Shown here piece by piece: positions 29,193 to 59,161 of a DNA stretch of 64,000 bases (position 1 is the stretch's first letter; every line of letters begins with the position of its first letter). The position numbers and the translations under genes were made by a program. Below the pieces are notes generated by a model. The model was not told where the DNA came from, made no database searches, and saw nothing but the letters and a program-made list of their open reading frames with translations. This DNA is from Truepera radiovictrix DSM 17093. GTDB taxonomy: Bacteria; Deinococcota; Deinococci; Deinococcales; Trueperaceae. The stretch is taken from assembly GCF_000092425.1 (NCBI RefSeq), contig NC_014221.1, positions 524,001 through 588,000 of the forward strand, given 5' to 3'.

Positions 29193-29237
29193 TTGCAGGG
29201 CGTTGCAACGCGCTTGCAACACAGCTTGGTTTAAGCT
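29193..29237 (+). promoter_or_regulatory. Three phased TTGCA repeats and a -10 element
   Basis: TTGCAG (29193), TTGCAA (29203) and TTGCAA (29214) are spaced 10 and 11 bases, one helical turn each, and are followed by TAAGCT at 29232-29237. This looks like an activator-dependent promoter. It points at the terminator at 29275. Confidence 0.45.
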
Positions 29238-29274
29238 ATGAACGGCCACCGGGGGCCAGAGGGAGACCTCAAAC

Positions 29275-29306
29275 GAGCCTTACTACGCAGTAAGGCTCAA
29301 TTTTTT
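29275..29306 (+). terminator. Strong intrinsic terminator after minC
   Basis: A perfect 10-bp stem (GAGCCTTACT, loop ACGC, AGTAAGGCTC), two A, then six T. It ends the minC transcript and any short transcript from the promoter at 29232. Confidence 0.92.
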
Positions 29307-38608: not shown

Positions 38609-38785
38609 AGCGCAGGATAAGTTTGCCTCCGCTGAGCGGGTGGCCTCCCCTCGAGCAACCCACGGTGCCCTTAAAGCCTGTGGTGCGCGCACCTTGACCG
38701 CGTAGGTCCTCAAAGGGTGCTTAGGCCTGACCGGGGCGGTTTCTGGTCACACTTCCTGAAGCTGAGCAGCGGAGAGGACAAACAC

Positions 38786-39937
38786 TTGAAACGTACGGCG
38801 AACCCCAAGGTGGCGCGCAGTAGCTGGGCAGGCGTCCTGACCCTCATTAGTCTTCTTTTTTTAGCGGCCTGTAGCAGCGGTTTAGAGCGCGAGCTTCCAG
38901 TTGAGTTGGCGCCGACAAATAGCAGGAGCGAGTGGCACAGCCGACTTTTAGCCAGCATGGAAAGGACGGGTATCGCGCCCGAGCTCGACCCCGTGCGGAT
39001 GGCTGACTCCGGCGATCTCTACGTCTACGGCCGGAACATGAACCACTACCTAACGAGCCTGATCCTGGCGTACCGGACGACGGGGGACCGGCGTTTGGTG
39101 CAGCAGATCGACACGGTGATGAACCGGATGCAGGGGACGCTGCGCGACACCACCGGCGACGGCTTTCGCAACTGGCGCTATCTCAGGAGCGGTTCGGGTA
39201 GCTTTTACGGACGCGACACCCACGAGATGGACGAGATGATGACGCACTCAGTGGTGGCGGCGGCGGCCTACACGCTGCGGCAGGCGGGCTTTAACAGCAG
39301 CGCGGACTTCTGGACGAACTACCTGCGCAACGACTTCGAGGCCAAGTGGCGTCGGCGCAAGGGGGTGCGTTCGGGCTTTCCGTTTTTGACGCGCAACCTG
39401 ATGCACCCGTACGTGCAGTGGATCCGCTACCACCACTACATGGGGAAGCTGACGGGCGACAGCGGCTACACGGCCGAGGCGCGGCGGATGGCGCGGATCG
39501 TGGAGAACAACATGCGCAGCGTCAACACGCCGTCGGGGACGGGGTACGTGTGGGACCACCGGGTACAGCTCTCAGGGCGAGCGAGCAACGGTTGCCAGCC
39601 GATGGTGTACGTGCGGCTGACGACGCAGGGGCTAGCGGACCTGGCGACGCAGGGGGTGTTCAGCAACACCTTTATGCAGCGCGTGGCCAACGGTATGGCC
39701 CATGTCGGCCTCAAGAGCACCGACGGGCAGCTCGCGGGCAACATCTGCGGGAGCGGAACCTATAGCAACCGCAGCGCTGTACGAAACTTCCCCTACGCTC
39801 AGATCGCCTCGTGGGATCGCTCAGGCCGTCTGCGTACCGCGGCTGAACGCGTCTACAACGCTACCGAGCGTCATAACCTCTCCCAGCCTCGGCTGTACAA
39901 TCTCCCAGCAACGATGGTCTTTACCTTGGGTCGGTAA
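38786..39937 (+). CDS. Large lipoprotein with helical-toroid-like sequence
   Basis: I choose the TTG at 38786 because GGAGAGG lies at correct spacing and a clean signal peptide with lipobox (LAAC, Cys29) follows. The 383-residue protein is rich in aromatic, His and Arg residues with repeated helical pairs (NMNHYLTSLILAYRTTGDRRL, EMDEMMTHSVVAAAAYTLRQAGF, WIRYHHYMGKLTGDSGY). This resembles the alpha/alpha-toroid folds of polysaccharide lyases and glycoside hydrolases. I cannot assign a family. Two Cys (NGCQP, NICGS) may pair. Confidence 0.72.
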   Translation: MKRTANPKVARSSWAGVLTLISLLFLAACSSGLERELPVELAPTNSRSEWHSRLLASMERTGIAPELDPVRMADSGDLYVYGRNMNHYLTSLILAYRTTGDRRLVQQIDTVMNRMQGTLRDTTGDGFRNWRYLRSGSGSFYGRDTHEMDEMMTHSVVAAAAYTLRQAGFNSSADFWTNYLRNDFEAKWRRRKGVRSGFPFLTRNLMHPYVQWIRYHHYMGKLTGDSGYTAEARRMARIVENNMRSVNTPSGTGYVWDHRVQLSGRASNGCQPMVYVRLTTQGLADLATQGVFSNTFMQRVANGMAHVGLKSTDGQLAGNICGSGTYSNRSAVRNFPYAQIASWDRSGRLRTAAERVYNATERHNLSQPRLYNLPATMVFTLGR

Positions 39938-47112: not shown

Positions 47113-48222
47113 GTGGAGGTGCGGGTAGAGCGGAATGCGTGGGATGCGCACGGGGGCACGGTAAGGCTGTGCCTGTTGGGGGCGCCCAGGTTGCGCTGCG
47201 GCGCCGAGACGTGCGATCTCGACGCCTCTCGGCCCTCGTTGCTGCTCTTTTACCTCGCGCTGCAGCCTGGTTGGCTCCGCCGCGACGAGCTTGCCTTTTT
47301 TCTGCGCCCCGACGTCGACCGCGAGACGGGGTTGCAGTACCTGCGCAAGCTGCTAAGTAGCGCGCGCCGCCTGCCTTGGGCGGTGGGGCTCGACGTCGAG
47401 GCCGAACGGGTGCGGTGGCGCGTCGACACGGACGTCGCGCGCTTTTGGCGGGCGCACGGTGAGGGGCGCTGGTTCGAGGCGCTCGAGCTCTACCGCGGCC
47501 CGCTGCTGCAGGGGATCGAGACCCCCTTCTCCCCCGGTTTGGAGACCTGGTTGGAGAGCGAGCGCGAGGCGCTCGAACACGCTTGGGCGGGGGCGACCTT
47601 GCACTACGCCGCCGATCAGGAGGCCTCGGGGCACTACCGCGAGGCGGCGGCGGCGGCGCGCAGGCTCCTCGAGCGCGACCCCTTTAACGAGGACGCGCTC
47701 GGGAGCTTTGTGCGTAACGCCTACCTGATGGGGCAGCGCGAGGTGGCGTTAAGGGCGGCGCAAGCATTTGAGGAGCGCTTGACGCGCGAGTTCGGCCTCG
47801 CTTTGACGCCGACGCTCAGGACGCTCGTCGACGACGTCCGCGCGGGCCGACCCCTGCAGCAGCGGGCAGCGGCGCCGCGCTACGGGCGCCGCCGCAGCGA
47901 CCGCACCGGCGTGGAGCGCTCGAAGCAGGCGCTCCTCGGTGAGCTCGTGCAGCTGCTCGCGACGCCCGATTCGCGCCTTTTGTCGATCAGTAGCCCCGAG
48001 CGCGGGGGGGTCACGCTGCTCCTGGCCAAGCGGGTGCCGGACACGCAGGTGGCGCTGCTGGCGGTGCTCGACCTGGCGGCCAAGCTGCTCGCCGAGGGGC
48101 GCCGCGCGCGCGCGCTAGGGCTCCTGCTGATCGTCCTAGACCATCCGTCGTGCAGCGCTGCTCTGCGCGAGCAGGTGCAGGCGCTCTGGCCGGGGCTCGA
48201 GGCGCAGCTGCGACCCAACTAG
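47113..48222 (+). CDS. SARP-like (BTAD) transcriptional regulator
   Basis: The 369-residue protein opens with a winged-helix DNA-binding domain (VRLCLLGAPRLRCGAETCDLDASRPSLLLFYLALQPG..., residues 17-95). A bacterial transcriptional activator domain of TPR-like helices follows (VARFWRAHGEGRWFEALELYRGPLLQGIETPFSPGLETWLESEREAL..., about 105-245). The C-terminal 100 residues are an unassigned helical region. This is the SARP layout, without an ATPase. Start GTG 47113 follows AAGGGGGG; GTG 47119 is possible. It lies just upstream of two promoters with SARP-style direct repeats and likely controls the exopolysaccharide genes. Confidence 0.85.
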   Translation: MEVRVERNAWDAHGGTVRLCLLGAPRLRCGAETCDLDASRPSLLLFYLALQPGWLRRDELAFFLRPDVDRETGLQYLRKLLSSARRLPWAVGLDVEAERVRWRVDTDVARFWRAHGEGRWFEALELYRGPLLQGIETPFSPGLETWLESEREALEHAWAGATLHYAADQEASGHYREAAAAARRLLERDPFNEDALGSFVRNAYLMGQREVALRAAQAFEERLTREFGLALTPTLRTLVDDVRAGRPLQQRAAAPRYGRRRSDRTGVERSKQALLGELVQLLATPDSRLLSISSPERGGVTLLLAKRVPDTQVALLAVLDLAAKLLAEGRRARALGLLLIVLDHPSCSAALREQVQALWPGLEAQLRPN

Positions 48223-48371: not shown

Positions 48372-48458
48372 CGAGCTGGGCGCGTCAACGACAACGTTCC
48401 CCATCCGGAAAGCCGTTGTTGAGAGGGTCCTAGCGTGCCTTTAAGCGCGTGGGGGCGC

Positions 48459-48490
48459 GTCACGCCACCGTCACACCCACCCCCTAGGCT
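48459..48490 (+). promoter_or_regulatory. SARP-type promoter 1: GTCAC direct repeats and -10
   Basis: GTCAC at 48459 and 48470 (11-bp period; extended CGTCACrCC in both), then 10 bases, then TAGGCT (48485-48490). No -35 element is seen; the repeats occupy its place. Confidence 0.6.
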
Positions 48491-48496
48491 AGAAGC

Positions 48497-48703
48497 ATGC
48501 CCCACGCCGACCCCCTCGCGAGCTTTCTCGTCCGCGTCGTGCACGGTCCCAACGAGCTGCGCATCACCGTCCAAAATCTGCAGACCAAAAAACTGTTCGA
48601 GCTCTCCTCCTGGCACGACCTCGTGTGGGTGCTGCAGCAGCCACCCCTCGACGCGCCCGCAGCAGACACACCCGCCGACGCACCCGCGCGGAAGCGGAGG
48701 TGA
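48497..48703 (+). CDS. 68-residue protein under the SARP-type promoter
   Basis: The start codon lies 6 bases after TAGGCT (leaderless). The product begins with a compact beta/alpha pattern (FLVRVVHGPNELRITVQNLQTKKLFELSSWHDLVWVLQQ) and ends in an Ala/Pro-rich basic tail (ADAPARKRR). No signal peptide. I know no family. Its position behind a regulated promoter, between the regulator and the polysaccharide genes, makes it a real gene in my view. Confidence 0.6.
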   Translation: MPHADPLASFLVRVVHGPNELRITVQNLQTKKLFELSSWHDLVWVLQQPPLDAPAADTPADAPARKRR

Positions 48704-49035
48704 CGCGGTGTCGGCGCTTCGGGCGGGCTCCGTGTTGGGCGGCCTCCGTGCGGGCGACGTTGGCGCCACCGGGGTCACGGGTGGCGCTCCGCCCCTGACG
48801 GCGTCACGGCGGCGTCACGCTGCGCTGCCACAATACCCGCAGATAGGGCCGGAACGGACACGTAAGGCCGGGGGTGTCGGTCGCCCGTCCTATCGTCTTC
48901 ACCGTAGCCCAACACCCGTGGTGCAACACCCGGGGCGAGCCTACCGGCGACTGATGGCGTAAGGTTCCCCTCAGGCACCTTCGCGCTGCTGGTTCCGGAC
49001 ACGTCTCGCACTCACTCCCGTTTAGGAGACCTCCT
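48704..49035. other. Regulatory region and long leader of the exopolysaccharide operon
   Basis: No gene recognised. It contains the second SARP-type promoter (48803-48834) and a leader of about 190 bases. A 12-bp direct repeat (CAACACCCGTGG at 48910 and CAACACCCGGGG at 48924, 14-bp period) lies in that leader, and TAGGAG lies close before the GTG at 49036. Confidence 0.5.
48803..48834 (+). promoter_or_regulatory. SARP-type promoter 2: GTCAC direct repeats and -10
   Basis: GTCAC at 48803 and 48814 (11-bp period; GGCGTCACG in both), exactly 10 bases, then CACAAT (48829-48834). The geometry is identical to the promoter at 48459. It faces the glycosyltransferase operon. Confidence 0.6.
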
Positions 49036-49899
49036 GTGAACGCTGCCTCCTCGAGCCGCCCCCAACGTCCCCGCGTTAGCGTCATCGTCCCCACGCTGAA
49101 CGAGGCCCAGAACTTGCCGCTCGTGCTCCCCCGCATCCCCGGTTGGGTCGATGAGATCATCGTGGTCGACGGTCGCTCGACCGACGACACGGTCGCCGTC
49201 GCCCAGGCGCTCGCGGCTTCGCTCAAACCGGCGCTGCGGGTGGTGCTAGAGTCCCGGCGCGGCAAAGGGGCGGCGCTCCGCGCGGGGTTCGCGGCCGCCA
49301 AGGGCGACATCCTCGTGATGATGGACGCCGACGGTTCGACCGAACCCGAGGAGATCGGCCTCTTCGTCCGCTACCTCATCGACGGGGCCGACTTCGTCAA
49401 AGGCTCGCGCTTTATGCAAGGGGCCGGCACCGCCGACATCTCGCCCCTGCGCTCGCTCGGCAACGGCGTCTTTACGCTCATGGTGAGGGCGCTTTTCGGG
49501 GGGCGCTTTACCGACCTCTGCTACGGTTTCGCCGCCTTCTGGGCCGACGTGGTGCCGCTGTTGGCGCTCGACGGCGACGGGTTCGAGATCGAGACGATGC
49601 TCAACATCCGGGCGCTGCGGGTCGGGTGCCGCATCGTCGAGCTGCCGAGCTTCGAGGCCGAACGCATCCACGGGGTGAGCAACCTGCGCACTTTTCCCGA
49701 CGGGTTTCGCGTGCTGCGTACGATTTTGCGGGAGCGCCTGAGGGGCAAACCGCTTCAGCGCTTGCGCACCGACCCCGCCGGAGCGACCTACCGCGGCCGC
49801 GGCGTGGTCCTCGAGGCTCATCCCGAAACGGCCGGGGCGAACGGCGAGCCGCGTCACCCGGTCGAGGCGCCCTTGGTGCGGGCCGCGAAGAGCTCGTAA
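49036..49899 (+). CDS. Family 2 glycosyltransferase
   Basis: The 287-residue enzyme resembles dolichol-phosphate mannosyl/glucosyl transferases of family GT2. It has SVIVPTLNEAQNLPLVL, IIVVDGRSTDDT, RRGKGAALRAGFAAAKGD and the metal-binding MMDADGST (DAD at 97-99), then the acceptor region with SRFMQGAGTAD and ERIHGVSNLRTFPDG. No membrane helices. It would transfer a sugar to a lipid or polysaccharide acceptor. First gene of the exopolysaccharide operon. Confidence 0.92.
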   Translation: MNAASSSRPQRPRVSVIVPTLNEAQNLPLVLPRIPGWVDEIIVVDGRSTDDTVAVAQALAASLKPALRVVLESRRGKGAALRAGFAAAKGDILVMMDADGSTEPEEIGLFVRYLIDGADFVKGSRFMQGAGTADISPLRSLGNGVFTLMVRALFGGRFTDLCYGFAAFWADVVPLLALDGDGFEIETMLNIRALRVGCRIVELPSFEAERIHGVSNLRTFPDGFRVLRTILRERLRGKPLQRLRTDPAGATYRGRGVVLEAHPETAGANGEPRHPVEAPLVRAAKSS

Positions 49900-49961
49900 A
49901 CCGCGGCTCGCGTACCGCTGCCCTCTTCCCTACGCGTCTTCATCCCTGGACGGTGCACAGC

Positions 49962-52310
49962 ATGCTCCCCCCCTACCCAAACCAGCCCACCGCCTCATCC
50001 TCTCAGCCCACCCTCTCGGTGGTGATCGCGGCCTTTACGGACGCGCGCTGGCCGCAGCTCCTGGCGGCCGTCGCCTCCGTCGCGGCGCAGCGCACGCCGG
50101 CGGAGCTCGTCGTCGTGGTCGACCATAACGACGCCCTGCTCGCCCGAGCGCGGGCCGCGTTGCCCGCGCACTACGCGGCGCACGCCACGCGAGAGGGCGC
50201 ACCTGGCGCGCTTGTCATCATCCCCAACACCCGAGCGCGCGGCCTTTCGGGGGCGCGCAACAGCGGCGTCGCCGCCGCAACGGGCGAGATCATCGCCTTT
50301 TTAGACGACGACGCGGTCGCCGAGCCCGATTGGCTCACGCACCTCACCGCGCCCTATGGCGACCCGCAGGTGCTCGGGGTCGGCGGCGCCGTCTTGCCCG
50401 CGTGGCCAGGCGCGGCGCCGAACTGGTTCCCCGAAGAGTTCGGGTGGGTCGTGGGCTGTTCGTACCGCGGTGGGCCGCGCGCGCGGGCGGAGGTGCGCAA
50501 CTTCATCGGCTGCAACATGTCGTTTCGCCGAAGCGCCCTGGCGGCGGTCGGCGAGTTTCGCGTCGGCCTCGGTCGCCTCGGCGCCCTGCCCGAGGGGGGT
50601 GAGGAGACCGAGCTCTGCATCCGCCTCCGGCAGCGCTTCCCAGAGGGGAGGCTGCTGCACGTGCCGGAAGCGCGCGTGGTTCACCGAATCGCGGCGCGGC
50701 GGCTCTCGCTCCGCTACTTCGCCGCGCGCTGCTACGCCGAAGGGGTGTCCAAAGCGCGCCTTACGGAGACCGTGGGCCGCACCGACGCGCTCGAGGCCGA
50801 GCGTGCCTACACCCGCACGGCGCTCCCCCGGGGGGTGCTGCGGGGCCTTGGCGCGGCCTTTGGTGGGGAGCTCGCGGGGTTCGCTCGGGCCGCCGCCATC
50901 GCGCTAGGACTCGGGCTCACGGCGCTCGGCTACTTCGTGGGGCTTGCTAAAGGCTATGGCCGCGCTCGAGGCACTCCCCGAGCGGCGCTCCCCGCCTCCG
51001 CTGCGGCGTTTGAACCGGTGCAGCTCGTCGACATCGACCTCAAGGGTGGCGTGCCCGACCTGCAACCCGCGCTCAGCGCGGCGGGGCGACCCTACCGGCG
51101 CGCGCTCGCCCTCGTGCGTTTTGCGGGGCGGCCTCTGGGTCTGGTGAAGCTCGAGCCCGGTCGCGCTGGCGTGAGCGCGCGGGCGTTCGGGGAGGCGATC
51201 GCCGCGCAGCTCGGCGTGCAAACCACGAGCGCGAAGCGCGTTTCGCAGGGCCTTCCCGGGTGCGCCGCAGGGGATAAGCGGTGGCCCTTTGTCAGCGTGG
51301 TGATCGCGACGCGCGAGCGCGCGCAGAGCCTCGAGCGCTGTCTGGCGTCGGTGGCCGAGCTCGAGTATCCCGACTTCGAGGTGATCGTGGTCGACAACAA
51401 CCCCGCTACCTCGGCGACGCGCGAGCTCGTGGCGGCCTTTTCGGCGCAGCGTCCGGCGCTTAGGCTACGCTACGTCCGCGAGGACTTCCCCGGCGGTGCG
51501 GCGGCGCACAACCGCGGGGTGCTCGCCGCGCGCGCCGAGATCATCGCCTTTACCGACGACGACGTGGTGGTCGACAAGGGGTGGCTGAGGGCGCTCGTCG
51601 CCGGCTTCGGGGCGGCCGAGCGGGTCGGTTGCGTCACCGGTATGATCCTCCCGGCGGAGCTGGAGACGGCGCCGCAGGGCTGGCTCGAGCAGTACGGCGG
51701 GTTCAACAAGGGTTTCGAGCTGCGCGCCTTTAACCTGACCGATAGGCGCCCGCCGAGTCCCCTCTACCCCTACGCCGCCGGGATCTTCGGTTCGGGGGCG
51801 AACATGGCCTTTACCCGCGAGGCGCTCTTTGCCTTCGGCGGTTTCGACCCCGCCCTGGGGCCAGGGAGCCAGGGGGTGGGCGGGGAGGACCTGGCCGCCT
51901 TTTTCGACGTCGTCACCCACGGTTACACGCTCGTCTATCAGCCGGCGGCACTTTTGTGGCACTACCACCGCCGCGACTACGAGGGGTTGCGGCGCCAGAT
52001 CTACGGCTACGGGGTCGGGTTCACCGCCTTTTTGACCAAAACGGTCGTCGAGCGCCCCGCGCGCGTCTTTGCGCTGTTGCCTTTGGGGTGGTGGGCGCTC
52101 ACCCACCTCCTAAGCCCCACCTCGCCCAAAAACGCCAACAAGCGCGCGGACTACCCGCCGGAGCTGAGTCGCCTCGAGCTCCGCGGTCTGCTCTACGGCC
52201 CCCTCGCCTACTTGCGTAGCCGCTGGCGTTTGCGCGGCGTCCGGGGGCGCGGGCGGCTCGTACGGGAGGCGCCACACCCGTCACTCCCTGCGGAGCGCCT
52301 CGCCGCATGA
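49962..52310 (+). CDS. Two-domain family 2 glycosyltransferase
   Basis: The 782-residue protein has two GT2 domains. The first covers about residues 15-300 (SVVIAAFTDARWPQLL..., ARGLSGARNSGVAAATGEIIAFLDDDAVAEPDW, DDD at 115-117). A hydrophobic hairpin and linker are at 300-430. The second covers about 440-740 (VSVVIATRERAQSLERCLASVAELEYPDFEVIVVDNN, TDDDVVVDKGWL near 530). Bidomain enzymes of this type often add two sugars. The start is uncertain: ATG 49962 or GTG 49953, neither with a clear ribosome site. It overlaps the deacetylase gene (ATGA). Confidence 0.9.
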   Translation: MLPPYPNQPTASSSQPTLSVVIAAFTDARWPQLLAAVASVAAQRTPAELVVVVDHNDALLARARAALPAHYAAHATREGAPGALVIIPNTRARGLSGARNSGVAAATGEIIAFLDDDAVAEPDWLTHLTAPYGDPQVLGVGGAVLPAWPGAAPNWFPEEFGWVVGCSYRGGPRARAEVRNFIGCNMSFRRSALAAVGEFRVGLGRLGALPEGGEETELCIRLRQRFPEGRLLHVPEARVVHRIAARRLSLRYFAARCYAEGVSKARLTETVGRTDALEAERAYTRTALPRGVLRGLGAAFGGELAGFARAAAIALGLGLTALGYFVGLAKGYGRARGTPRAALPASAAAFEPVQLVDIDLKGGVPDLQPALSAAGRPYRRALALVRFAGRPLGLVKLEPGRAGVSARAFGEAIAAQLGVQTTSAKRVSQGLPGCAAGDKRWPFVSVVIATRERAQSLERCLASVAELEYPDFEVIVVDNNPATSATRELVAAFSAQRPALRLRYVREDFPGGAAAHNRGVLAARAEIIAFTDDDVVVDKGWLRALVAGFGAAERVGCVTGMILPAELETAPQGWLEQYGGFNKGFELRAFNLTDRRPPSPLYPYAAGIFGSGANMAFTREALFAFGGFDPALGPGSQGVGGEDLAAFFDVVTHGYTLVYQPAALLWHYHRRDYEGLRRQIYGYGVGFTAFLTKTVVERPARVFALLPLGWWALTHLLSPTSPKNANKRADYPPELSRLELRGLLYGPLAYLRSRWRLRGVRGRGRLVREAPHPSLPAERLAA

Positions 52311-53143
52311 ACGTTCCCATCTTGCTCTACCATAGCGTCGCCGCCGAGGTCGCGCCCGCTTACGAGCCTTGGGCCGTGCTGCCAGAGCGCTTCGCCGAAC
52401 AGCTCGCCTACGTGCGCGCGCAGCGCTACACCCCGCTGACCGTGTCGCAGTGGCGGCGCCTGCTCGAAGAGCGCGCGCCGCTGCCGCCCAGACCGCTGCT
52501 GCTGACCTTCGACGACGGGCTGCGCGACTTTTACACGACGGCCTGGCCGCTGCTGCGCGCCCACGGTTTTGCGGCGACGCTCTACGTCACGGCCGGGTAC
52601 GTCGGTGGCGTGAGCCGTTGGCTCACCGCCGACGGGGAGGGGCAGCGCCCGATGATGGGTTGGTCAGAGCTCCTCGAGGTGAGCCGCAGCGGGATCGAGT
52701 GCGGCGCGCACAGCCTGACGCACCCCCAGCTCGACACGCTCAGCCGACGCGCGGCGCAGCGCGAGATCGGCGGCTCCAAGGCGCTGCTCGAAGCGCACCT
52801 CGGCTGTGCGGTGCGCAGCTTCGCCTACCCTCACGGCTACCACAGCCGAGCCGTCAAGCGCCTCGTCCAGGAAGCGGGATTTGGCTCGGCGTGTGCGGTC
52901 AAGCACGCGCTGAGCTCCCCCGAAGACGACCCCTTCGCTTTAGCCCGCATCGTCATCTACCGCGACACCGACCTCCTGACGTTCAAGCGGCTGCTCGCCG
53001 GCCACGAGCTGCGCCGCGCCCCCTTCCCCGAAAGTTGGAAGACCCGAGGGTGGCGCCTTGCAAGACGTTCGGCGCGCCTACTTAGAGGCGTTCGTGGCAC
53101 CCTCGCGAAGGGCCCTCACGCGCAAGGAGGGTGGTATGGTTAA
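52307..53143 (+). CDS. Polysaccharide deacetylase (NodB domain)
   Basis: The 278-residue protein is a carbohydrate esterase family 4 enzyme. It has ILLYHSV, the metal motif LTFDDG (about 66-70), GAHSLTHPQL with the two His ligands (about 135-141), and RSFAYPHGYHS. It would remove N-acetyl groups from the polymer or an intermediate. No signal peptide is evident, so it may act in the cytoplasm. It overlaps the preceding and following genes. Confidence 0.9.
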   Translation: MNVPILLYHSVAAEVAPAYEPWAVLPERFAEQLAYVRAQRYTPLTVSQWRRLLEERAPLPPRPLLLTFDDGLRDFYTTAWPLLRAHGFAATLYVTAGYVGGVSRWLTADGEGQRPMMGWSELLEVSRSGIECGAHSLTHPQLDTLSRRAAQREIGGSKALLEAHLGCAVRSFAYPHGYHSRAVKRLVQEAGFGSACAVKHALSSPEDDPFALARIVIYRDTDLLTFKRLLAGHELRRAPFPESWKTRGWRLARRSARLLRGVRGTLAKGPHAQGGWYG

Positions 53144-54245
53144 CCCCACGGCGCTGCGCGTCTCCGAGCGCCCCACGCGGACGCGGCAGCTGTGCGTCGC
53201 GGGGCTCGCGGTGCAGGTGACGAGCCCCGCGCCCAGGGCGCTCTGGCTCGAGCTGCTGCAGCGCGATCCCGAGGCGTTACCCTCGCAGACACCCCTGTGG
53301 CTCGACGGCCTCTGTGCGCACAAGGGCTACCGCGACGCGAGCCGCTGCTACCGGTTTTCAGATGGGCAGCAGCTGGTGCTGCCGCTGGTGCAGCGTCAAA
53401 GCCTAGGGGCGTGGTCGCCTCAGGCCTCGCTGCCGTACGCGTGGGGGATGGGGGGGGTCGTCGCCGCGCAGGCGCTCGCTGCGCCGCACCTTCGAGCGGT
53501 GTTCGAAGACCTCAGGACGAGCCCGGCGCTGAGCACCAGCGTGCTGCCCAACCCGCGGCAGGGACCCTTGTGGGCGGCGGCCAAACCCGCGTACGTGCGG
53601 AGCCTGCCGCGCCGCGCCCACGTGCTCGACCTCGAGGGAGGGTTTGAGCGCGTGTGGCGCGAGCGCTTCTCGAAGACGACGCGCCGCATGGTGCGCAAAG
53701 CCGAAAGGCTCGGGGTCACGGTGACGTGTGACACCACGGGCCGCCTCGCTCCGGTGGTCTATCGGCTGCGCCGCGCCGCCGTCGCCCGCTGGGCGGCGCG
53801 GCAGCACGAACCCCGTTGGCTCGCGCATCTGCGCGCCGAGCTGCGCGACCCGCAGAGCAAACTCCAACACCTCGCGCGCGTGATGGGGAGCGCGCTGCGC
53901 ATCTGGGTGGCGTGGCGCTGCGGGGAGCCGATCGCCGCCTCGCTCGTCCTCGTGGGCAGCAACGCCGACGACATCCTGGCGGTGATGGACGCCTCGAAAG
54001 CCGCCGCTACCGGCGCCAATGATCTCCTGCTGCGGTTGTCTATCGAGGACGCGTGCAACGCGGGGTGCCGCTACTACCACCTGGGCGAGTCGGGGGCGTC
54101 GGTCGGCCTCGCGCGGTTTAAAGAGCGTTTTGGCGCCCACGCCTACCCTTACGAGGAGTTTTACGTGGAGCGTCTGCCGCTCAACCAGCTCGACCGTGGC
54201 CTAAGGGGCGCCGTAAAACGCGTGATTGGATTTCGGGATGTCTAA
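53136..54245 (+). CDS. FemAB/CelD-like GNAT acyltransferase
   Basis: The 369-residue protein matches the BioF2-like (Acetyltransf_6) group often seen in exopolysaccharide loci. The C-terminal GNAT fold contains RFSKTTRRMVRKAERLGVTV, YRLRRAAVARWAARQ, WVAWRCGEPIAASLVLV and YYHLGESGASVGLARFKERFGAHAYPYEEFYV. It may acylate a sugar. I start it at MVNPT (ATG 53136), with AAGGAGGG at good spacing, 8 bases inside the deacetylase gene. Confidence 0.85.
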   Translation: MVNPTALRVSERPTRTRQLCVAGLAVQVTSPAPRALWLELLQRDPEALPSQTPLWLDGLCAHKGYRDASRCYRFSDGQQLVLPLVQRQSLGAWSPQASLPYAWGMGGVVAAQALAAPHLRAVFEDLRTSPALSTSVLPNPRQGPLWAAAKPAYVRSLPRRAHVLDLEGGFERVWRERFSKTTRRMVRKAERLGVTVTCDTTGRLAPVVYRLRRAAVARWAARQHEPRWLAHLRAELRDPQSKLQHLARVMGSALRIWVAWRCGEPIAASLVLVGSNADDILAVMDASKAAATGANDLLLRLSIEDACNAGCRYYHLGESGASVGLARFKERFGAHAYPYEEFYVERLPLNQLDRGLRGAVKRVIGFRDV

Positions 54246-54367: not shown

Positions 54368-55672
54368 GTGCAAGCGTCTAAGGTGCCCGTGGTAGCGAAG
54401 TTTTGTGCGCAGCTCAAGTCGCATCTGGTGCTAAACGGTTACGCGCTCGTCTTTAGCTCGGGCGCGACCTCGGCGCTAGGGGTGGTCTACTGGATTCTAG
54501 CCGCGCGCCTCTACCCGGAGGCGACCGTCGGCCTCAACTCCGCCGCGCTAGCGGCCATGTTTTTCCTCACCAACCTCTCGCAGCTCAACTTGGTCCACGC
54601 GCTTAACCGCTTCGTCCCGTCGGCGGGGCGGAGCACGGCCAAGCTCATCGCGACGGCTTACCTTGTCAGCGTCGCGCTCGCTCTGCTGACGAGTGGGGTG
54701 TTTCTGCTCGGCATCGACCTCTGGGCGCCGAGCTTGCGGGCGCTGCGCGCCGACCCCGCTTCGGCCGCCTGGTTCATGTTTGCCACCGCCAGCTGGTGCA
54801 TCTTTACGATCCAAGACGGGGTGCTCGCGGGGTTGCGGCAGGCCAAATGGGTGCCCCTGTCGACGACCTCCTACGCGCTGATCAAACTGGCCGTTATCGC
54901 CTTGGCCGCTACGCGCTTGCCTCGAGGGGGCATCTTCTTCTCCTGGACGGCGCCGGTGCTGCTCCTGGTGGTGCCCGTCAGCGCGCTTATCTTTCTGCGG
55001 TTGGTGCCGCGGCACGTCGCCGCTGCGGAAACGCGCGGCGACGGCCTGAGGGGGCGGAGCGTGGTGCGCTTTGTCGCCGGCGACTACCTCGCGTCGCTCG
55101 TCTGGATGGCGACGGTCAACTTGCTGCCGGTGCTGATCGTCGAGCGCGCGGGTGCGTCGGCGGGGGCGTACTTCTACCTGGCGTGGACGATCGCCTACAC
55201 GCTCTACTTCGTCAGCGTCAACATGTGTATGTCGCTGGTCACCGAAGGAGCGCGCGACGAAGCGCGGCTCAACCTCTACAGCTTTGAGACGCTGAAGCAG
55301 ACCCTGCGTCTGGTGGTGCCGATCGTCGCGGTGGTGGTCGTCGGCGCCCCCCAGATCCTGCAGCTCTACGGCAGCGCGTACGCTGCGGAGGGGGCGACGC
55401 TGTTGCGGCTCCTCTGCCTCTCGGCCGTTCCGTACGTCTTCGTCGCGGTCCGCATCAGCATGGCCCGCGTGCAGCGCAAGATCCTCACCATCTTCTGCGT
55501 CTACGGCGCGCTATGCGCCTTGGCGCTCGGTCTCACCCACGTGCTGCTCGACCGCTACGGCGTCGTCGGGGTCGGCTGGGCTTGGCTGGTTGCACAGACG
55601 CTGACGATGGGGGTGCTGCTCCTAACCGACTTGCGTAGGGCGTGGGGACCGCTGCTCGGGCGCGCCGCGTAA
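54368..55672 (+). CDS. Polysaccharide flippase (Wzx-like)
   Basis: The 434-residue protein has about 12 transmembrane helices in the MATE/MVF-type polysaccharide transporter layout. It starts with GYALVFSSGATSALGVVYWILAARLYPEATVGLNSAALAAMFFL and has the family's Asn/Arg-rich first loop (NLVHALNRFVPSAGR). It would flip lipid-linked repeat units across the membrane. GTG start with GGAGG 4 bases upstream. The 120 bases before it hold no recognised feature. Confidence 0.88.
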   Translation: MQASKVPVVAKFCAQLKSHLVLNGYALVFSSGATSALGVVYWILAARLYPEATVGLNSAALAAMFFLTNLSQLNLVHALNRFVPSAGRSTAKLIATAYLVSVALALLTSGVFLLGIDLWAPSLRALRADPASAAWFMFATASWCIFTIQDGVLAGLRQAKWVPLSTTSYALIKLAVIALAATRLPRGGIFFSWTAPVLLLVVPVSALIFLRLVPRHVAAAETRGDGLRGRSVVRFVAGDYLASLVWMATVNLLPVLIVERAGASAGAYFYLAWTIAYTLYFVSVNMCMSLVTEGARDEARLNLYSFETLKQTLRLVVPIVAVVVVGAPQILQLYGSAYAAEGATLLRLLCLSAVPYVFVAVRISMARVQRKILTIFCVYGALCALALGLTHVLLDRYGVVGVGWAWLVAQTLTMGVLLLTDLRRAWGPLLGRAA

Positions 55673-55802: not shown

Positions 55803-57656
55803 GTGAAGGTATCCAACCAGAGGCCTAAAGTCGGGGTGTTCGTGGGGCGCCGCGCTGCGCCAGCCGCTCGCGTCGGGCGCGGCGCCGGCGACCTCACCCG
55901 CTTTGTCGTAGCGCTGCTCCTCAGTTTGGGCTTCGGCGCTTGGCTGCTGTCGCTCGCGCGTCTTTCCCCCGCTGACATCGACGCTTTCGGGCTCGTCGGC
56001 GCGCTCCCCGTAACCTACTGGCTCGCGCTCGTGAGCACCCTCGCCGTCTTCGTAGCGTGCTTGGGCAAAACCGCCGCCGCGTACTACCTCGGTAGCGTCG
56101 TGCTCCTGATCGTCTACCTGCACGCGACGCCCGCGCTCGTCTACGACGGTCTGCGTTACCCGTGGGTCTACAAACACCTCGGGCTCGTCGAATACATCGG
56201 GGTGTACGGCGCGGTCGACCCGCTCATCGACGCCTATCACAACTGGCCCGGCTTCTTTGCGCTCTGGGCGCTGCTCACCGAGACCGCGCAGCTGCCGCTC
56301 GAGGCGTTAGCGGCGTGGGCGCAACCCTTTTACAACCTGCTCTACCTGCCCCCGCTGCTGCTGTTCTGTCGCGCCTTTAGCCAAGATGCCCGCGTGGTGT
56401 GGTTGGGGGTGTGGCTCTTCTACCTCACCAATTGGGTGGGGCAGGACTACTTCGCACCGCAAGCGCTCGCGTATGTTTTCTACCTCACCGTACTGGCCTT
56501 TTTGCTACACCTCTTTCCGCGGCGTGACAACCGCCTGACGAGAACCCTCGGTCCAGGGGCCGCGCGCCTCTTGCGGACGACCTACCGTCCCCCCGAGGAG
56601 CCCGAGCGTTACACCGGTCGGCGGGCGGTGCTAGCGTACACGCTCGCGCTGCTCGCCTTTGCCGCGATGGTCTACAGCCATCAGCTCACCCCGTTTGTCA
56701 CCATCGTCTGCGTGATCGCGCTCGCGGCGGCGGGCGTTGACCGTCTGCGCGTGACCGCGCTTCTTTTCATGGCGCTCACCGCGCTCTGGCTCACCTTTAT
56801 GGCGACGGGCTACTTAGGTGGGCACCTTACGGAGCTCCTCTCGGACCTCGGCGCGATCGGGCAGAACGTCGAGCGCAACGTCGGCGAGCGGCTTACCGGG
56901 GCGCCCCAACGCCAGCTCGTGCTCAGCGTGCAGCTCGGCTTGTCGGTGGCGCTGTGGCTGCTCGCGGGTGCGGGGCTCGTCAAGAGTTGGCGGCGAGGGC
57001 GCAGCGATCTGGCGCTCGCCGCCTTGGCGTTCGCGCCCTTTCCGCTCCTCGCGCTGCAGCCGTACGGCGGCGAGGCGCTGCTACGGCTCTACTTCTTCAC
57101 CCAACCGGCGATGTGCCTGCTCGCCGCGCGCGCTTTGCTCCCCGATGGCGCCCCCAGGGTCGGGGCGAGGCGTCGGGTCGCGCTCGGAGCGCTTTCCGGG
57201 GTGCTGTTGGGGGGGCTTGTCATCGCTTACTACGGCAACGAAGCGGTCAACTACGTCTCCGCGACCGAAGCCGAGGTGTTTCGCGCCCTCTACGACACCG
57301 TGCCGGAGGGTTCGCTCCTCATGGCGGTCTCGCCCAACTACCCGCTGCGCAACTCGGCCTTTTACTACCGCGTGGTGAACACCTCGCTCGTACAGCAGCT
57401 TCGTCCGGAGCCCTTTGAAGCGGTGTTCGTCGACGAGGGGGTCGTCGACGTCAGCGCGCTCGTGGCGTACATGCGCGAGTTCCCCCACGCCTACCTGGTG
57501 TTTTCGGACGTGCAGCGCCGCAACCTCGAGGTGTTGCGCCCCGTGCCCGCCGCCTCGGTCGCGGCGCTCGCGCGTGCGCTCGCGACCGACCCGGCGCTCG
57601 AGGTGTTCTACCGAGCGGGTGACGTGGTGATCTATACCCTGAGGAGGGCGCCGTGA
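55803..57656 (+). CDS. Multi-pass membrane protein, possible polysaccharide polymerase
   Basis: The 617-residue protein has about 11-12 transmembrane helices and a large C-terminal soluble part (from about residue 490: YYGNEAVNYVSATEAEVFRALYDTVPEGSLLMAVSPNYPLRNSAFYYRVV). Periplasmic loops contain YHNWPGFFALWALL and NWVGQDYFAPQALAYVFYL. The NWPGF and QDYFxPQA pattern is seen in membrane proteins of polysaccharide loci that may act as polymerases or glycosyltransferases. No certain family. GAGGTGA precedes the GTG. It overlaps the next gene by 4 bases (GTGA). Confidence 0.75.
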   Translation: MKVSNQRPKVGVFVGRRAAPAARVGRGAGDLTRFVVALLLSLGFGAWLLSLARLSPADIDAFGLVGALPVTYWLALVSTLAVFVACLGKTAAAYYLGSVVLLIVYLHATPALVYDGLRYPWVYKHLGLVEYIGVYGAVDPLIDAYHNWPGFFALWALLTETAQLPLEALAAWAQPFYNLLYLPPLLLFCRAFSQDARVVWLGVWLFYLTNWVGQDYFAPQALAYVFYLTVLAFLLHLFPRRDNRLTRTLGPGAARLLRTTYRPPEEPERYTGRRAVLAYTLALLAFAAMVYSHQLTPFVTIVCVIALAAAGVDRLRVTALLFMALTALWLTFMATGYLGGHLTELLSDLGAIGQNVERNVGERLTGAPQRQLVLSVQLGLSVALWLLAGAGLVKSWRRGRSDLALAALAFAPFPLLALQPYGGEALLRLYFFTQPAMCLLAARALLPDGAPRVGARRRVALGALSGVLLGGLVIAYYGNEAVNYVSATEAEVFRALYDTVPEGSLLMAVSPNYPLRNSAFYYRVVNTSLVQQLRPEPFEAVFVDEGVVDVSALVAYMREFPHAYLVFSDVQRRNLEVLRPVPAASVAALARALATDPALEVFYRAGDVVIYTLRRAP

Positions 57657-59161
57657 CGCCTCTGCACCAGCGGATCGAGCTGCCACTTGTCAACCTCATC
57701 CTGAGCGGCGCAGCGCTCGCGGTCCTCGCCGCCGAGGCGCCCGCGGCGCTGCGCGCGCCCGTCGTGCTCGCCTTTGTCTTGTTCGGCCTCGGGCTCTCAG
57801 CGCTGCAGTTTCTCAGCTTCGGGGAGCTCGTCGCCGACCTGAGTTTCGTGCTCGCGGCGGGGCTCGCGCTGGTGACGGCGCTGACGGCTGCTATGCTCTA
57901 CCTCGTGGCGTGGTCGCCGCAGACCGCCCTGCTGACGCTCGCGCTCCTCTGCATGGCGCTGGCGCTCACCCGCTTGGGGTGGCACCTCAAACCCCGCTGG
58001 CAGCGCCGCGGGCGCAGCGGCCAGGTCGCGAGCCGCCTCGAGGCGCCGCCCCGCCAGACGCTCCAGGGGGGCACGCCGCTCGGGGGGGGTGCCGGGCGCG
58101 TGGCTGAGCAGGGCGCGCTGCGGGACCTGCTCGAGGGGCATGTGCTCGCCGAGATGGTGTGCCTCGCGACCTTGGCGGTGCTGTGCGGGGCCAACAGCTA
58201 CACGCAGATCCACCAGTACGGCCTAGCGCAAGAGGCGTGGCTGCGGAGCTTTCTGACGCTGCCGTCGGGGGTGCCGTCCCCGGAGGCCTTCGCGCGGCTT
58301 TTCGCGGTGCTGCGCCCCGACGCGTGGCGGCGGCAGCTGCTGGCGTGGACGCGGGCGCTCGTGTCGAGCGCGCCCGAAGCGCCGGGTAGCGCGTCGGTGG
58401 CTGACAGGGACGCCCCCGCCCCCGAGGGGCTCGGTGCGGTGCGCGTTGCTTTGGGCCAGAACGGGCTCGTCCTGGCGCAGCGCCCGGGCGACGAACGCGC
58501 TCACGTCGCGGCGATCCAGGAGCTTGCGACCCTCATCGAGCTTGGGGGCGCCGTCGTGACGACGGGCGCGCACCAGGGGCGAGACGTCGCCTGGACGCTG
58601 CGCGAGCACCGCGCCCACTACGTGCTAGCGCTCCAGGAGCACCCCGGGCTGCTCGCGAGCGTCCGGGACGTTTTCGGTTACGCCGACAAGCTCACCTGGA
58701 AGCTCGAGCACAGCTACCTCGAAACCTCCAAGCGGGAGGGGGAGCGCGAAGCGCGCCGTGAGTGCTGGGTCGTGCCGCCCCCCGAGTGGCTCCCCGAGCG
58801 CGAAGCTTGGCGCGACCTCGCGAGCCTCGTCAAATTGCGTTTAAGCCACACCGTCGGCGACGACACCTTGACCCGAACCCGCTACTTTCTGAGCAGCCTG
58901 CCCCTCGAGGCCGAACGCGCCCTTCACGCCACGCGTTCGTGTGCGGAGGGGGGCTGTGGTTGGCACTGGGTTTTGGAGGTGCCTTTTGAGGAGGATCAGC
59001 GCCCGGCCCGTCGCCAGAGTGCGCAGGCGAGCTGGCGCGCCCTCCGGCAGCTCGTCGCGGAGCTTTTAAACCGTGATGAAACGCTCGGGGGCGGCGACCT
59101 TCGGGCCAAGCGCCTGCGCGCCGGGTGGGACCGTGCCTACCTCTTTAAGCTCCTCTGCTAG
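57653..59161 (+). CDS. Four-helix membrane protein fused to an inactive ISAs1-type transposase fold
   Basis: The 502-residue protein is chimeric. Residues 8-108 form four transmembrane helices; 110-155 are a basic and Gly-rich linker. Residues 156-502 follow an ISAs1 (H-repeat) transposase: LAEMVCLATLAVLCGANSYTQIHQYG, WLRSFLTLPSGVPSPEAFARLFAVLRP, ENGLVL-like QNGLVLAQRP, YVLALQEHPGLLASVRDVF, TRTRYFLSSLPLEAERAL, HWVLEVPFEED, RAKRLRAGWDRAYLFKLL. The three catalytic acids are gone: the DGK block is missing, VTIDA is VVTTGA, and the IEN before LHWVLD is GGC. It overlaps the preceding membrane gene (GTGA), so it is an operon member, not an insertion. Function unknown. Confidence 0.85.
   Translation: MTPLHQRIELPLVNLILSGAALAVLAAEAPAALRAPVVLAFVLFGLGLSALQFLSFGELVADLSFVLAAGLALVTALTAAMLYLVAWSPQTALLTLALLCMALALTRLGWHLKPRWQRRGRSGQVASRLEAPPRQTLQGGTPLGGGAGRVAEQGALRDLLEGHVLAEMVCLATLAVLCGANSYTQIHQYGLAQEAWLRSFLTLPSGVPSPEAFARLFAVLRPDAWRRQLLAWTRALVSSAPEAPGSASVADRDAPAPEGLGAVRVALGQNGLVLAQRPGDERAHVAAIQELATLIELGGAVVTTGAHQGRDVAWTLREHRAHYVLALQEHPGLLASVRDVFGYADKLTWKLEHSYLETSKREGEREARRECWVVPPPEWLPEREAWRDLASLVKLRLSHTVGDDTLTRTRYFLSSLPLEAERALHATRSCAEGGCGWHWVLEVPFEEDQRPARRQSAQASWRALRQLVAELLNRDETLGGGDLRAKRLRAGWDRAYLFKLLC

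Follow-up and report, generated by a model that had tools for sequence, protein, structure and literature searches.

Predicted SARP-type boxes before a small gene and an exopolysaccharide operon of Truepera radiovictrix

The afsS gene of Streptomyces coelicolor encodes a protein of 63 amino acids and is adjacent to the regulatory gene afsR. The box recognized by another activator, PhoB, is CTGTCAT-N4-CTGTCAT. The AfsR box at the afsS promoter consists of two 11-bp direct repeats that lie over the -35 region, from -40 to -19; the promoter has a weak -10 element, CACTGT, and no good -35 element, and the targets of AfsR are pleiotropic (PMC10936776). In Streptomyces, the sequences bound by PhoP and by AfsR overlap at promoters that the two regulators share, that of afsS among them (PMC10936776). 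In Thermus, the activator DnrS, which has GAF and BTAD domains, controls denitrification targets (PMC5748679), and a leaderless layout with a short distance between the -10 element and the ORF is documented in the Deinococcus-Thermus group (PMC12340547). No open-licence paper was found that ties SARP or BTAD proteins to Deinococcus or that describes an AfsR-afsS system outside the Actinobacteria, and as far as we found, the arrangement of a paired-site SARP with a tiny gene was previously known from Streptomyces.

The window considered here, meaning the whole stretch of 64,000 nucleotides that was analyzed, is from Truepera radiovictrix DSM 17093 (contig NC_014221.1, positions 524,001 to 588,000). 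A first-pass annotation had reported GTCAC-N6-GTCAC, followed after ten bases by a -10 element, at 48459-48490 and again at 48803-48834 of the window. Both the coordinates and the spacing are correct, and the sequence agrees with its statement that a -35 element is absent from the two promoters. Site 1 (GTCACGCCACCGTCAC, 48459-48474, + strand) has the half-sites CGTCACG and CGTCACA within 48458-48475, and site 2 (GTCACGGCGGCGTCAC, 48803-48818, + strand) has two identical CGTCACG half-sites within 48802-48819; the period is 11 bp in each. The half-site is better given as 7 bp, YGTCAC(G/A) (48458-48464 and 48469-48475 at site 1, 48802-48808 and 48813-48819 at site 2), which is one member of a wider class, YGNNACG. 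Ten bases after site 1 is TAGGCT (48485-48490, + strand), the -10 element of the small-gene promoter, and the ATG at 48497 follows 6 bases on. Ten bases after site 2 is CACAAT (48829-48834, + strand), a weak -10 element assigned to the predicted promoter of a polysaccharide operon. The two copies of GTCAC-N6-GTCAC in the window compare with 0.11 expected from shuffles.

The gene just upstream (47113-48222, + strand) encodes a regulator of 369 amino acids that scores 52.4 bits against the Pfam BTAD family, above the cut-off. It has the order of domains that defines SARPs, with a winged helix of the OmpR type at the N-terminus and then a BTA domain, and the AlphaFold2 model has an intact winged helix and a helical BTA domain, with the recognition helix at about residues 70-85, including K79. 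Foldseek matches of the model include EmbR (2ff4, E 3e-10) and the AfsR initiation complex (8k60/8hvr, E about 1e-9). No domain was assigned to the C-terminal 110 or so residues, and the NTPase and TPR regions of large SARPs are absent, so that with 369 residues and BTAD only the protein would be called a small SARP. Two linked relatives from other loci that were examined by domain search have BTAD, an AAA/NB-ARC NTPase and TPR, which is the AfsR layout.

We think it quite probable, judging from sequence, that both sites are SARP boxes of this adjacent protein, which would activate the 68-aa gene, the exopolysaccharide operon and probably two secreted lipoproteins. The BTAD protein is the presumed binder: a SARP-type dimer, with a geometry taken from the AfsR structure, would occupy both 11-bp repeats, one subunit next to the other, across the -35 region, and the bound regulator would recruit RNA polymerase to promoters that have a -10 element and no usable -35. 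Site 1 would then serve the leaderless 68-aa gene and site 2 the exopolysaccharide operon, and a subtilase and a protein of about 430 amino acids, both secreted lipoproteins encoded elsewhere in the genome, would be the probable further targets. This circuit would be the local form of a Deinococcota-wide module, in which each SARP regulator has a dedicated tiny gene and each pair its own half-site, the small protein perhaps acting as an AfsS-like downstream effector or feedback partner.

The small gene (48497-48703, + strand, 68 amino acids) is predicted to be leaderless, and its protein has no match in Pfam or NCBIfam. With the single sequence as query, 4 of 61 genomes, the source genome among them, gave homologues; a first profile found them in 27 of 111 genomes and a second in 50 of 111 Deinococcota genomes. 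Named genomes scanned with the 68-aa protein alone gave no match, and the scan with a subfamily alignment matched only Trueperaceae MAGs, an uncultured MAG of the Thermus/Deinococcus group and Meiothermus hypogaeus. Therefore, the small-protein family belongs to the Deinococcota. Its modeled fold is beta-beta-beta-alpha with good confidence in the core (mean pLDDT 77); the best Foldseek match has an E value of 0.43 and VIA gives Z scores of at most 4.1, and so no function was assigned from structure.

The promoters of these genes display a clear pattern. Of 42 distinct upstream regions of 62 bp, 31 have a repeat at lag 11 with at least 6 of 7 matches, versus about 2 in shuffles, and other lags occur in 4 at most. 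The consensus is YGNNACG-N4-YGNNACG-N9/10-(T/C)AnnnT-N5..7-start. Counting later matches, 48 distinct small-gene promoters carry it, 44 of them with (T/C)AnnnT, and since the start codon is 5-7 nt past the -10 element, these genes are also predicted to be leaderless. Counted from the start codon, the half-sites begin at -39/-40 and -28/-29, and thus the two 11-bp units extend from about -40 to -19. Like described SARP promoters, the window sites and the 48 promoters have 11-bp repeats with the 3' repeat near the -10 element and a poor -35, and the two-repeat box at -40 to -19 precedes a small target gene beside the regulator. For 21 later homologues that were not used in defining the motif, 11 reached or exceeded the preset score and a twelfth did so after its start was corrected, versus 3% of random positions. 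A scan of the fetched loci for repeat, -10 element and start returned almost only members of the small-gene family, and of 18 starts of longer ORFs in the window that look leaderless, none has the repeat. Some small-gene subfamilies, those of the 'IWWE' type, do not have it either.

Two other promoters with this architecture deserve mention. The first is at 29203-29305 of the window (+ strand), where TGCAACG-N4-TGCAACA-N10-TAAGCT, with a third TTGCA upstream, forms a site of the GCAAC class, a class with two members in the genome. A strong terminator, GAGCCTTACTACGCAGTAAGGCTC and after it a run of T, follows the promoter within about 70 nt, and the product may be a short RNA or a tiny ORF under another SARP-type regulator. 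The second is in another genome (G005), where the gene at L096:4724 (+ strand) encodes a secreted protein of 321 amino acids near a BTAD/small-gene pair. It is preceded by the box AGTGACG/CGTAACG and CAGGCT, with the start 6 nt on. The box has the half-site class of the nearby pair, and by its sequence the gene is a candidate for a second target that this regulator has nearby, much as site 2 would be in the window.

The small gene adjoins a SARP-type (BTAD) regulator in 35 of the 39 loci that bear the repeat, usually 26-277 bp downstream of it on the same strand, once divergently and once upstream. One of the four exceptions is in the sister species, a member of the same genus, whose contig starts just upstream; the other three have no regulator match within the 1.2-4.5 kb examined. 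The half-site varies from locus to locus (GTCAC, GTAAC, GTGAC, GAAAC, GCAAC, GGAAC and GACAC), and the two variable bases agree between the half-sites of a promoter in 55 of 76 comparisons, versus 30.4 expected (0 of 10,000 permutations as good). The similarity of the recognition helices of the linked BTAD proteins tracks the similarity of the half-sites (Mantel test, 0 of 5000) and still does so after correction for BTA-domain similarity (partial Mantel r 0.26, 20 of 5000). In the whole aligned SARP region, the column that best predicts the half-site is at one position of alpha3, where the window protein has K79; the residue there is for the most part Q where the half-site is GT(A/G)AC, L where it is GCAAC or GAAAC, and K where it is GGAAC or GTCAC. 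Phylogeny accounts for part of this covariation (r with the BTA domain is 0.49), and we therefore regard it as support and not as proof. The sequence evidence supports the prediction that the repeat is the site of the linked regulator.

The first-pass annotation had proposed a genome-wide scan for the repeat with a -10 element. In the single contig of 3,260,398 bases, bare GTCAC-N6-GTCAC occurs in 13 exact copies, versus a mean of 9.7 per spacing (263/27, from counts of GTCAC-N4..30-GTCAC over 27 spacings genome-wide), and so an enrichment of the bare repeat had to be rejected. At least six of the 11 other copies are within coding ORFs. What is special is the combination: none of those 11 copies in the whole genome has YAnnnT at the right distance, and the two window sites are the only places in 3.26 Mb with the repeat and a correctly spaced -10 element. 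A relaxed pattern, TCAC-N7-TCAC-N9..11-YAnnnT, is present at seven places in the genome, two of them the window sites, with no further full-GTCAC site among them; a pattern search of the sister genome returned six places. The reversed pattern gave no matches, but CACTG is itself about four times rarer than GTCAC, which makes the control an unfair one. A separate observation from the same genome is an array of five GTCAC with spacings of 11, 8, 8 and 11 in a short intergenic region (2343030-2343072, - strand; G000:C1, locus L007); it is a few kb from the subtilase gene discussed below and has no -10 element at the required distance.

Three of the sites are orthologous in the two species: those before the small gene, before the gene for the secreted lipoprotein of about 430 amino acids (63% identical) and before that for an S8 subtilase lipoprotein (assigned by Pfam; 66% identical). 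In all three the start codon is 6-7 nt past the -10 element. In the window genome, predicted target genes also lie downstream of genome positions 1234615 (- strand) and 2348491 (+ strand). At the small gene, the sister species has CTTCACA/CGTCACG with TACGCT as -10 at the same spacing. The gene at 38717-39937 of the window (+ strand) encodes a paralogue, 43% identical, of the 430-aa lipoprotein, and no box was found before it. These targets give the window genome a testable regulon that ties exopolysaccharide synthesis to secreted lipoproteins. The proposal of a SARP circuit is supported by the conserved repeat, -10 spacing and leaderless start, by the linkage, by the covariation and by the three targets shared with the sister species; the support is good at site 1 and moderate at site 2.

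Site 2 needs a closer look. The predicted transcript, as placed from the -10 position, would begin with an untranslated leader of about 195 nt (48841-49035, + strand), with an SD-like AGGAG before the GTG at 49036. No riboswitch or other known RNA in the leader reached the Rfam gathering score; the only loose matches, a frameshift element (E 0.025) and an sRNA (E 2.9), are far below the cut-off. The first operon gene, a GT2 glycosyltransferase (49036-49899, + strand; Pfam Glycos_transf_2), has an orthologue at the same position in the sister species that is 72% identical. It is followed on the same strand by a protein with two GT2 domains (49626-52310; the listed ORF start overlaps the previous gene and the true start is probably later), a PgaB-like polysaccharide deacetylase (52307-53143), a GNAT/FemAB-like acyltransferase (53058-54245) and two polytopic membrane proteins (54368-55672 and 55803-57656), which are hydrophobic, have no Pfam match and are flippase- or polymerase-like by appearance only. 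In both species, the small gene is succeeded by the series of GT2, double GT2, PgaB-like deacetylase and GNAT/FemAB-like genes. In the ORF at 57653-59161 (+ strand), where the operon ends, the first 120 or so residues are membrane-like, whereas the rest has its match in an ISAs1-type transposase (DDE_Tnp_1_assoc); an insertion may have truncated the last operon gene or become fused to it. The sister operon includes a GH16 gene (Glyco_hydro_16; L155, contig G001:C370, 5663-6562), and none was recognized at the matching place in the window. From this gene content (the GT2 transferases, the PgaB-like deacetylase and the FemAB/GNAT-like protein), control of a capsule-like polymer, as first suggested, is plausible.

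The window has a perfect copy of the site itself; that of the sister species is degenerate (CGGCACG/CTTCACG with GATGAT as -10, correctly spaced), and therefore we grade the operon as a probable, and not a certain, target of site 2. It is unlikely, but worth weighing, that site 1 is a true SARP box and site 2 a chance repeat, which would leave the polysaccharide operon outside the circuit. The background frequency of the bare repeat, the poor CACAAT and the degenerate sister site would all fit with chance. However, the genome has only two full sites with repeat and -10, site 2 among them; the 7-bp half-sites of site 2 are identical, it is intergenic and before the first gene of the operon, and the best site of the corresponding intergenic region in the sister species is the correctly spaced one, which about 1% of shuffles equal.

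Another explanation, which we consider improbable, is that the boxes belong to a different SARP-type protein, such as one of the four other BTAD proteins, and that the shortened neighbor is a decaying or modulatory paralogue. The genome encodes five BTAD proteins, the neighbor has neither NTPase nor TPR, and no orthologue of it was found in the draft sister assembly (91% complete, 380 contigs), where the one match has an E value of 1e-4. The sister contig, however, has just 85 nt before the small gene, and therefore the regulator gene may be in an assembly gap. The other four proteins match the SARP region of the neighbor weakly or not at all, a profile search found no second small-gene homologue elsewhere in the window genome, the winged helix and the BTA domain of the neighbor are both intact, and in relatives such genes are as a rule adjacent.

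It is very improbable that the sites are Pho-box-like targets of a PhoB/OmpR-family response regulator with the BTAD gene an incidental neighbor: such regulators likewise recognize direct repeats of 11 bp placed about 10 bp before the -10 element, TCAC resembles TGTCA, PhoP and AfsR overlap in Streptomyces and the sites are kept in a sister genome with no detected regulator orthologue, but the half-site changes with the recognition helix of the linked BTAD protein across loci, which one global PhoB would not bring about, the linkage is to BTAD genes, and no phosphate gene was seen among the recovered targets (the small gene, the polysaccharide operon, the subtilase and the lipoprotein).

Returning to the SARP circuit, a wider proposal would be an undescribed two-gene module of the whole phylum, in which an AfsR-like regulator is paired with a tiny beta-beta-beta-alpha protein, an AfsS-like effector or feedback partner, through a leaderless promoter and a private half-site, with several insulated pairs per genome (up to about ten small genes). 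We offer this tentatively, as having somewhat less than an even chance of being right, and the role of the small protein as effector or feedback partner, suggested by analogy with AfsS, is a low-confidence assignment. The dozens of paralogous pairs with covarying half-sites and helices make a natural series for working out a SARP DNA-recognition code. They also predict direct targets for otherwise unannotated regulators of radiation- and heat-resistant bacteria, and they bring to notice a family of small proteins for which neither Pfam nor NCBIfam has a model.

How does this system compare with those already described? Thermus DnrS is likewise a BTAD-containing activator and from the same phylum; its domain order and targets differ, and no direct-repeat box or small gene has been described for it. 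The Pho box shares the 11-bp direct repeat in place of a -35 element, whereas here the half-site varies with the linked BTAD protein and the targets found include no phosphate genes. Small SARPs of the ActII-4, RedD and DnrI type, and EmbR, resemble the window protein in having an OmpR-like winged helix and a BTA domain (the fold matches are to EmbR and AfsR), in being situated beside their clusters and in using repeats of 11-bp period near the -10 element; the window system differs from the small SARPs in its half-site, in having no antibiotic cluster and in the extra C-terminal region of about 110 residues. The closest likeness is to AfsR-afsS: a SARP regulator with a small target gene, a box at -40 to -19 (taking the transcription start in Deinococcota to be at the start codon), a weak -10 and no good -35, BTAD-NTPase-TPR proteins among the linked Deinococcota relatives, and pleiotropic targets. 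The differences are that the hosts are Deinococcota and not Actinobacteria, that the mRNA is predicted to be leaderless, that the window regulator is shortened, that one genome has many paralogous pairs with different half-sites, and that the targets are polysaccharide and secreted-protein genes; by appearance, the small protein does not resemble AfsS. Both the logic of the SARP box and the pairing of AfsR with afsS have so far been treated as Streptomyces biology, and the same layout is now found in the Deinococcota.
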